Assembly: GCF_000484535.1 (NCBI RefSeq)
Contig: NC_022600.1
Coordinates: 3,658,001-3,722,000, forward strand
DNA: 64,000 nucleotides
Direction of reading: 5' to 3'
Origin: Gloeobacter kilaueensis JS1
GTDB taxonomy: Bacteria > Cyanobacteriota > Cyanobacteriia > Gloeobacterales > Gloeobacteraceae
The notes under the pieces were generated by a model. That model did not search any database and was not told the origin of the DNA. It was given only the letters and a program-made list of their open reading frames with translations. The stretch's first letter is position 1. Each line of letters starts with the position of its first letter. This document shows positions 61,451-64,000 of this stretch, piece by piece. The translations under genes and the position numbers were made by a program.

Positions 61451-61460
61451 GTGCTATGAC

Positions 61461-62028
61461 TCAGATCTCGCACCAAGGTGTGGCATTTTTGTTTACCGCT
61501 GTAGTAGTGCCTCTGCTTTTTTTGGGCCGTTCGATCGGCACTTCTGTCCCATCGACGACGACCACTTCCAGATGCACATTCGACTGCGTTGCTTGAGGTG
61601 AAGGCAGCCGAAAGCGTCCGGATTGCACCAGCAGTCGCTCGACTTTGTGGACGATACGACAGACGGTCGATTCGTGTATGTCCCAGCTTTGAGCGATGTG
61701 AAAGTGGGTGCGGCCTGCCCCCCGACCTGGCCCCAAACGGGGGTTGGGGGCGAGCAGGGGCATGGGGGGTACTCCCGCGAGTACTGCAGGGCAAGCAGCA
61801 ACTGGTCTTCAGTAGAGAGTTTGGCCTGTCCGCCACGCTTGCCGGTGCGCTCCAGAGTCGGTCGAAGGACATCGACCATTGCCTGGAAGGTTTCAGCTCG
61901 CACACCGCAGAGGCGTTTGAAGTCGGTGGGCTTGAGATGTTGGATATCCTGATAGCTCATCATCAGGGCAGAAAAGCAGTAGTGACCCTACTACTTGTGA
62001 CCCATCCTAGACATTCATGCAAGAGGTC
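61461..62028 (-). mobile_element. Degenerate IS5-family element with split transposase
   Basis: Starting at 61963, MSYQDIQHLKPTDFKRLCGV and LSTEDQLLLALQYSREY are the N-terminal end of an IS5/DDE_Tnp_4-type transposase. A 56-base C-rich insertion at 61713-61768 then breaks the frame; beyond it THFHIAQSWDIHESTVCRIV, VVVVDGTEVPIERPKK and, after a T7/A7 run (61517-61523), QRHYYSGKQKCHTLV resume. The rest is missing. Its left border is probably at 62028 (GACCTCTTGCATG), where the immunity paralogue stops; the right end abuts hemY. Non-functional. Confidence 0.75.
61713..61768. repeat. 56-bp C-rich insertion within transposase
   Basis: Read on the minus strand, runs of CCCCC interleave with TGCCCCTGCTCG and GGTCGGGGGGC, with partial self-pairing (GCCCC/GGGGC). 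It interrupts the transposase between REY and THFH codons, shifting the frame by two. Probable short interspersed repeat or small non-autonomous insertion; borders are plus or minus 2 bases. Confidence 0.6.
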
Positions 62029-62180
62029 TAATATTTCATCTTTCCTGTCTGATGCTGGTGCAGGCATAGCATGTTGTAAAACGTCTTCCACTTTGTAATT
62101 TTGTAATCGTAAGTAACAGCAGGTAACTCATTGAGCCAAATACGTGCTTGTCTGGCCATTCCAAAATCAAATTCTTTCAT
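62029..62180 (-). pseudogene. Truncated second immunity paralogue
   Basis: From ATG 62180 the frame reads MKEFDFGMARQARIWLNELP then AVTYDYK, aligning with MRELKLRTFKQARIWLNELP and DISYEYD of the intact gene 62221-62778. The frame is broken by an 8-bp duplication at 62092-62107; removing one copy gives VEDVLQHAMPAPASDRKDE, matching the intact ADVLQ... segment. The IS5 remnant cuts it at about 62028. It is a decayed duplicate directly downstream (40 bases) of the intact gene, not functional as is. Confidence 0.75.
62092..62107. repeat. Exact 8-bp tandem duplication
   Basis: TTTGTAAT repeated exactly twice (62092-62099, 62100-62107) inside the immunity paralogue. It changes the reading frame by +8; with one unit the coding frame is restored. 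Likely slippage, possibly reversible. Confidence 0.85.
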
Positions 62181-62220
62181 CTTTCTATTCTGCAGAAGTC
62201 CCGAAATTCAGCACCAAATC

Positions 62221-62778
62221 TCAAGATTTTGGGGGACTTATCAGCGCTTCTATTTGCTCTGTATTTACATCCTTTGTCTTTTGACATAATAACTCTAAGG
62301 TTACAGAGCAAAGGCGCTTAAAGACATTTATAGAGGAGCCAACAACTCCATGAGCAGCATATCTAAATTCTAGTACGCCTTCTCCGATTTGCTGTATAAT
62401 TGGAGACTCAACAGCTTTTTCCAGTACTGCAACTGCGTATTCAGTTGGCAGGCCGGTAAAAATATTATCGAGCCTAGAAGCCAAAGCCCAAGACAGTTCT
62501 CTACCAAGCTTATCTGAGGACATCACTTTTACAAGCAGTTCTCCTGAAATGCAAGGAGATTTGATTTCGGCACCTAGTATTCCACATTGATTCAATCCGC
62601 CTGGAATTAGAATTTCAACAGCAACTTTGCTGATCAATCGTTCATGTTGTTCAGCTAGGATTGGCACTTTCACAATACTTTGCAAAACATCTGCTGCATC
62701 ATATTCGTAGCTAATATCAGGCAATTCGTTGAGCCAAATACGTGCCTGTTTGAACGTTCTTAACTTCAATTCTCTCAT
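62221..62778 (-). CDS. Candidate immunity protein of toxin cassette
   Basis: 185 residues from ATG 62778; this ATG overlaps the stop of the upstream toxin gene (ATGA, 62775-62778), the coupling typical of toxin-immunity pairs. The protein is helical/mixed: KLRTFKQARIWLNELPDIS, LISKVAVEILIPGG and AVAVLEKAVESPIIQQIGEG. No Imm family recognised. GC is clearly lower than in the housekeeping part. An N-terminal paralogue lies just downstream. An in-frame start at 62802 is less likely. Confidence 0.6.
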   Translation of the reverse strand: MRELKLRTFKQARIWLNELPDISYEYDAADVLQSIVKVPILAEQHERLISKVAVEILIPGGLNQCGILGAEIKSPCISGELLVKVMSSDKLGRELSWALASRLDNIFTGLPTEYAVAVLEKAVESPIIQQIGEGVLEFRYAAHGVVGSSINVFKRLCSVTLELLCQKTKDVNTEQIEALISPPKS

Positions 62779-63548
62779 CGCTCTAACCCGTAGAATTCCC
62801 AAAATGGGCGAGAAAATTCACCAGGAAACTGCTTAATAACATCTGGATGATATACACTAAATCGTGAGACGTTATATTTTTTCAGTGCTGCCTCATGTGC
62901 AACAAAATATGCTTCACTAGACTCTATGCCTTGCTCTAACAAAGATTTCATCAATGTTGCTTCCGAAATTTCGTGAGTGTAAAAGCTTGCATCTGAACCG
63001 GAAATTTTTAAGCCATTTGCTAATGCTTCCTCCAATCTGGACACCATAGCAGTATTATACGATATATCGCCAAATTTCATCAGATGCTCTTTTACAATTG
63101 AGAGACCTTTTTCTGTGATTGTAACTTCAAGACCGGCAAGTTTTCCAAATCCTTCACCTCCCGTACGTGCGCCACTCCAAAATGCTCCTGTTGCCCTGAT
63201 AGAATCTCCAACTGCCTCTCGTGCTGCAACTGCAACGACGCCTTTGATTGCTGCAGTCGCCAGGCTCTTAATCAGAAAAACATCAGAGATAGCAAGGGCT
63301 GTATTGAACAGACCCCAACCTACTCGACCATTCTGAAAATCATCGATTGCCTGTCGGCCTGAACCCCAGACGGGAATCAAGCTTTCGAGTAAGCCTGGTG
63401 CTCCAACTCCTCCTGACTCAGTCTGAACCGCGTCGAGTTGCTGAGCGACATTGTTTGCAGGACAGGAAACCGAAAGACTGATATCGGCATTCGGCAAATT
63501 CTGCTCAGCGTTAGAGATGGTGGCCACCAGCCTGGTGATGTCTCCCAT
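62775..63548 (-). CDS. Polymorphic-toxin-like protein with pre-toxin region
   Basis: 257 residues. N-terminus VATISNAEQNLPNADISLSV, then a hydrophobic pre-toxin-like region ESLIPVWGSGRQAIDDFQNG and GLFNTALAISDVFLIKSLAT, similar to segments preceding C-terminal toxin domains in Rhs/polymorphic toxins. The C-terminal 110 residues contain FYTHEISEATLMKS, AYFVAHEAALKKYNVSRFSV and YHPDVIKQFPGEFSRPFWEF; the His-Glu-x-x-Glu plus distant His-Glu would allow a metal site, but I cannot assign the enzyme class. It is co-transcribed with the upstream partial gene (3-base gap) and the downstream immunity candidate. AT-rich composition suggests recent transfer. Confidence 0.62.
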   Translation of the reverse strand: MGDITRLVATISNAEQNLPNADISLSVSCPANNVAQQLDAVQTESGGVGAPGLLESLIPVWGSGRQAIDDFQNGRVGWGLFNTALAISDVFLIKSLATAAIKGVVAVAAREAVGDSIRATGAFWSGARTGGEGFGKLAGLEVTITEKGLSIVKEHLMKFGDISYNTAMVSRLEEALANGLKISGSDASFYTHEISEATLMKSLLEQGIESSEAYFVAHEAALKKYNVSRFSVYHPDVIKQFPGEFSRPFWEFYGLER

Positions 63549-63551
63549 TGC

Positions 63552-64000
63552 TCAGCTGCCCCTACTCAGTCGGTGCCAGTGATCGGAGCGCTCTTGCACT
63601 TCCTGCCAATCCTGCACAGTCGTTCTGCCAATCAAAGCTCGTACTCTTCTATTTGGATGAATGGCCGGGTCGTTGAGAACAGCCTTGATCCGGGTATGTT
63701 CATCGAAGTTTGGTGCAAACTCGAACATTAAACCCACGAAGGCCGTGAGGCTCGATTCCCAGGTGATGCCATAGCGCCTGGCCTGCTGCAGCCCAAAACG
63801 GACACGACTTTTTAGCTCAGTGTCAGATAACGTTGAAACACTGCCCTCGTGATGGGTTCTCAAGTGCTTGAGCAGTTTTTCGACAAAGGCCGCCTCGGCC
63901 AGAGAATAGAACGCGCTTTCATGCTCCTGTCGTATTCTGAACGCCCGCTCTGCTTTCGTCCTCTCTGTTCCCTGCTGTGCTGTTCGTTCATCGCCTGCAA
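63552..64000 (-). CDS. Toxin-cassette accessory protein, partial at window edge
   Basis: The frame is open from 64000 to a TGA at 63552; its start lies beyond the window, so at least 148 residues. The upper part is charged and helical (FRIRQEHESAFYSLAEAAFV, EKLLKHLRTHHEGS) and continues into RVRFGLQQARRYGITWESSL, TAFVGLMFEFAPNFDEHTRI and NDPAIHPNRRVRALIGRTTV. I recall similar proteins next to PAAR/polymorphic-toxin genes of other bacteria, but did not name a Pfam family. The internal TTG at 63863 is not the true start. Confidence 0.6.
   Translation of the reverse strand, partial: AGDERTAQQGTERTKAERAFRIRQEHESAFYSLAEAAFVEKLLKHLRTHHEGSVSTLSDTELKSRVRFGLQQARRYGITWESSLTAFVGLMFEFAPNFDEHTRIKAVLNDPAIHPNRRVRALIGRTTVQDWQEVQERSDHWHRLSRGS

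Follow-up and report, generated by a model that had tools for sequence, protein, structure and literature searches.

Does the 8-bp tandem duplication that interrupts a second immunity gene in Gloeobacter kilaueensis JS1 turn that gene on and off, or is it a scar of gene decay? The original prediction for this locus allowed for both, proposing either a fixed decay event or a slippage-type on/off site. The analysis favors the ordinary explanation: the duplication lies in a decayed remnant of an orphan immunity gene that is broken twice, once by a frameshift and once by the end of an insertion sequence. We put the probability at roughly 88% that the duplication is a scar of fixed decay in what remains of an orphan (displaced) toxin/immunity cassette. 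The features on which this reading depends are listed below, with positions given in the window, that is, the whole 64-kb stretch of DNA that was analysed.

61477-62029, minus strand: IS5-like insertion sequence (IS) fragment, with its right end intact (~62027-62032) and its left end missing
62031-62180, minus strand: remnant of a second immunity gene, with an ATG at 62180 and ~47 gene-derived codons; a 50-aa ORF as it stands
62092-62107, read on the minus strand: two perfect tandem copies of an 8-bp unit (TTTGTAAT x2), which put the immunity remnant out of frame
62178-62221, minus strand: what is left of a toxin gene at its 3' tip (GAEFRDFCRIER stop); its TGA and the ATG of the immunity remnant overlap
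62221-62778, minus strand: intact immunity gene (185 aa); its cyanobacterial family is uncharacterised
62775-63548, minus strand: toxin/effector gene, 257 aa, whose C-terminal domain is shared with Rhs-borne and free-standing relatives
63552-64000, minus strand: chaperone/adaptor gene of the DUF4123 type (PF13503, E 6e-37), 3' part; the gene continues beyond the window

The duplication and the reading frame

The 16 bases of the duplication (TTTGTAATTTTGTAAT, 62092-62107) occur only once in the 4.72-Mb genome by a whole-genome count (published size, 4,724,791 bp; PMC3806779). Chance alone predicts about one perfect tandem repeat of 8 bp in 64 kb (64000/4^8), and a count of all such repeats, which covered the 64-kb window, gave three separate ones. 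The repeat alone is thus not striking, and what stands above chance is the coincidence of its position with that of an 8-nt gap in the reading frame. On the minus strand, the frame of the remnant opens at 62180 (MKEFDFGMARQARIWLNELPAVTYDYK) and its continuation (VEDVLQHAMPAPASDRKDEI) is found in another frame, with the switch between the two occurring at the repeat. In an unbiased single-gap scan, in which every gap length from 0 to 12 nt was tried at 100 positions to join the remnant to the intact paralogue, an 8-nt gap placed exactly at the repeat came out best. With this gap, the remnant and the intact immunity protein are identical at 20 of 46 residues and no further gap is needed.

These results bear out the original prediction that the tandem pair breaks the frame of a second immunity gene. 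The start codon it assigned to that gene (ATG at 62180, minus strand) and the two peptides it aligned, YDYKVEDVLQ in the remnant and YEYDAADVLQ in the intact paralogue, are also correct. The 8-bp repeat is absent from the intact paralogue and its homologues, and indeed from every fetched locus outside 62092-62107, ruling it out as a conserved feature of the family. A literature search for short tandem duplications in pseudogenes found nothing.

Truncation by an insertion sequence

The frameshift is not the only lesion in the remnant, which matches the profile of the immunity family at model positions 1-30 (E 1.5e-4). Members of this family are about 185-195 aa long, and the remnant keeps ~47 of ~185 codons, so that about the last three quarters of the gene are gone; with them went 13 of the 16 family residues that are invariant across 13 homologues, these 13 residues lying beyond residue 47. 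The immunity gene continues for roughly 60 nt past the repeat and then meets the terminus of the IS5-like fragment, and the stop codon of the 50-aa ORF is located at this junction. Three other copies in the genome, all ending GGTCTAAT / ATTCATGCAAGAGGTCTAAT, share the sequence that lies on the IS side of 62032, and in the fullest of these copies (L009) the inverted ends are ~940 bp apart. The fragment itself begins 27 bp past the stop codon of hemG, at 61477, and the part of the transposase that it carries is broken and gives a weak match to the NCBIfam IS5 model. Between the IS fragment and hemG, no 3' part of the remnant immunity gene was found.

Two further observations concern the IS copies themselves. 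The transposase of the fragment contains a 36-nt GC-rich stretch (61725-61762) that is absent from the fullest copy and resembles a sequence at G000:C1:2987600, possibly representing a small dispersed repeat. The fullest copy (L009:188-1128; G000:C1:2599687-2600627) directly abuts an array of ~29-bp repeats with a spacing of roughly 72 bp, which is probably a CRISPR array.

Removing one copy of the unit does reopen the frame, as originally predicted, but the frame remains open for 69 codons only. Downstream of the repeat it holds another 20 gene-derived codons without a stop, bringing the gene-derived part to 47 residues, and the last ~22 residues are then contributed by the IS. A change in copy number therefore cannot restore the immunity protein, and neither copy number of the repeat can encode it whole. 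This weighs directly on the idea that the repeat is a slippage-type, phase-variable switch of the immunity gene. Like simple sequence repeat contingency loci, the site has a perfect tandem unit within a coding frame, of a length not divisible by three, and its one-copy version reopens that frame. It differs from such loci in that there are two copies only, seen in one assembly, and that no phase encodes a whole protein: phase variation calls for a repeat number that yields a whole, functional frame, and the best that this site can offer is 69 aa in a family of ~185 aa. A two-copy 8-bp repeat is also shorter than the usual phase-variable tracts, and its absence from the intact paralogue and the homologues further argues against a switch. 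The paper that we found on tandem-repeat phase variation concerns much longer repeats, located in promoters. We accordingly rejected on/off switching, which we regard as extremely improbable; however unstable the repeat may be, such a role is unsupported, because neither version is a whole immunity protein. The alternative that the original prediction had offered, a fixed decay event, agrees with a gene that is both frameshifted and truncated by an IS end.

An intact toxin/immunity pair and a probable orphan relative

Two further Gloeobacter genomes (G001 and G003) have hemG and, starting within ~25 bp of its end, a gene that we take, from its sequence, to be chorismate-lyase-like. In G. kilaueensis, ~4.0 kb separate these two genes, and the inserted, largely AT-rich cassette extends from window position 61451 to 1.4 kb past the window end (L012:1452-5414). 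It contains the IS fragment, the remnant, the immunity and toxin genes, the DUF4123 gene and, upstream of the latter, a T4 gp19-like tail-tube gene (PF06841, E 4e-28). The DUF4123 gene is the only one in the genome, and gp19-type matches occur at four other places. G+C content is 0.39-0.46 from the remnant through the toxin gene, 0.55 in the DUF4123 gene and 0.62 in the tail-tube gene, as compared with 0.63-0.65 in the flanking genes and 0.61 in the window. Of the other Gloeobacter genomes that were searched, not one has the immunity gene. Transfer is the most likely source of the cassette, or at any rate of its toxin/immunity end.

A profile search over 386 cyanobacterial genomes revealed relatives of the C-terminal domain of the toxin and of the immunity protein in 12 other cyanobacterial loci, and in most of these the toxin domain is encoded directly upstream of the immunity gene, supporting the "immunity" label of the original prediction. 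A peptide-pattern scan of genome contigs for relatives found none. The domain is carried at the C-terminus of an Rhs protein in one case (L008) and by short free-standing ORFs in others (L029 and L035). Different carriers thus bear the same toxin domain, and the immunity gene comes directly after it, which is the organisation of polymorphic toxin/immunity systems; toxicity of the one product and protection by the other would follow from this organisation. Across the toxin domain (62778-63167; loci L008, L029-L031 and L034-L038), FYxHE, EA, AH and Y motifs are conserved. Searches with the toxin and the immunity protein against Pfam, NCBIfam and PDB sequences gave no convincing match naming an activity, and a plasmid collection yielded no DNA match; at the protein level it gave a single weak match, located next to Rhs genes in Methylosinus trichosporium.

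Structure prediction for the intact immunity protein (pLDDT 87.7) showed a resemblance of residues 42-170 to domain IV of EF-G, with VIA Z scores of up to 9.1 (rmsd 3.2, 105 residues); by the tool's own note a Z near 8 can arise by chance, but EF-G entries occupy the top of the list. Foldseek gave E values of 0.02-0.1 for the same comparison. The toxin domain is predicted to be helical (pLDDT 94.2), and no match to its fold with Z >= 5 was found among the chains compared. Going by these models, the immunity protein might imitate EF-G domain IV, in which case the target of the toxin would be EF-G or the site of EF-G on the ribosome. We consider this very unlikely, and the idea concerns the neighbouring intact genes rather than the 8-bp repeat; the predicted EF-G-like domain is almost wholly lost from the remnant.

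The similarity between the remnant and the intact genes is not confined to the immunity gene. A direct repeat of 104 nt (62104-62207 and 62702-62805; 74% identity) spans the toxin tip as well as the start of the immunity gene, and the two toxin ends can be compared directly: the remnant, of about 13 toxin codons, ends in FRDFCRIER and the intact gene in FWEFYGLER, each followed by a stop codon that overlaps the start of the immunity gene as ATGA. Since the similarity reaches the last codons of the toxin, the remnant derives from a second toxin/immunity cassette, which, judging from the sequence, survives as a toxin tip and an immunity gene start only. A toxin tip followed by an immunity gene of the same family also occurs in three of the relatives (L028, L032 and L033).

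This arrangement resembles the orphan cdiA-CT/cdiI and Rhs modules already described in CDI and Rhs loci, including ones disrupted by an IS (PMC3150448). As in those modules, a startless 3' fragment of a toxin gene is followed by a homologous immunity gene, and both lie downstream of an intact toxin and immunity pair. In contrast to them, both parts are remnants here, of ~13 toxin and ~47 immunity codons, and the main effector of G. kilaueensis is a small DUF4123-linked protein rather than a CdiA protein. The orphan immunity gene of E. coli EC93 is intact and functional, a property that is not required of a remnant; the one in G. kilaueensis is frameshifted and truncated. A second parallel is offered by the immunity arrays of T6SS loci, in which effector displacement predicts that only the tip of the older toxin is retained (PMC5361080). 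There, too, an older immunity gene is found behind a new effector-immunity pair, and the locus in G. kilaueensis likewise has a contractile-tail-type gene adjoining; it differs in having a single, dead immunity remnant and in its known linkage, which is with DUF4123 and a tail tube of the gp19 type. By analogy with these systems, the remnant is most likely an orphan (displaced) toxin/immunity module of a kind already known from CDI/Rhs and T6SS loci.

The second cassette could instead have arisen in place, by local duplication of the immunity gene together with the toxin tip, with the later decay being the same. Several observations are consistent with such an origin: the remnant adjoins the intact gene on its downstream side, the repeated segment takes in the toxin tip together with the beginning of the immunity gene, and the intact protein is 43% identical to the remnant as compared with 25-34% to other homologues. 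Nevertheless, 74% identity at the nucleotide level and 43% at the protein level mean that the divergence is not recent, and displacement of an older effector would be expected to leave a toxin tip and nothing more of the toxin (PMC5361080). We therefore consider local duplication somewhat unlikely, and prefer displacement of an older cassette.

Proposed origin of the lesions and death of a spare immunity gene

Under displacement, an older toxin/immunity cassette would have been pushed behind a newer pair, leaving the tip of its toxin and its immunity gene. An IS5-like element would then have cut this immunity gene after about codon 47, and the rest of the gene would have been lost together with the left end of the IS, presumably by deletion. 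Either before or after this truncation, the 8-bp tandem duplication, most likely a product of replication slippage, would have frameshifted what remained and become fixed in a gene no longer under selection, which presumably has neither product nor function. The duplication may be fairly young, or later than the truncation, because the 20 gene-derived codons that follow the repeat lack a stop.

The two 8-bp copies might also be a target-site duplication left by an element that has since departed, for example an IS66-like one. The genome contains three near-identical IS66-like copies of ~1.5 kb (G000:C1:1735910, 2404376 and 3225771; L058-L060), each of them bordered by a perfect direct repeat of 8 bp (GATTGGAC, CCAGACAC and ATTCGTAG), matching the length of the unit at our site. 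At 62092-62107, however, no element sequence is left, and plain 8-bp slippage requires fewer steps. Transposases of PF00872 and PF01610, two other families with 8-bp target duplications, were not found. Bacterial IS elements seldom leave both target copies behind in a flush excision. Given the missing trace of an element and the unusual excision that would be needed, a departed element is an unlikely source of the repeat, if one to be taken seriously, and we favor slippage.

The repeat has no importance as a switch, the gene in which it lies being already truncated. The locus carries a more general caution, in that a short repair that restores a reading frame needs to be checked against the sequence that comes after it. 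The intact pair, of an uncharacterised family and linked to genes for a DUF4123 chaperone and a tail tube, is the part of more interest. The remnant beside it would represent a small and clear case of the death of a spare immunity gene, through displacement, IS truncation and frameshift, in a deep-branching cyanobacterium.
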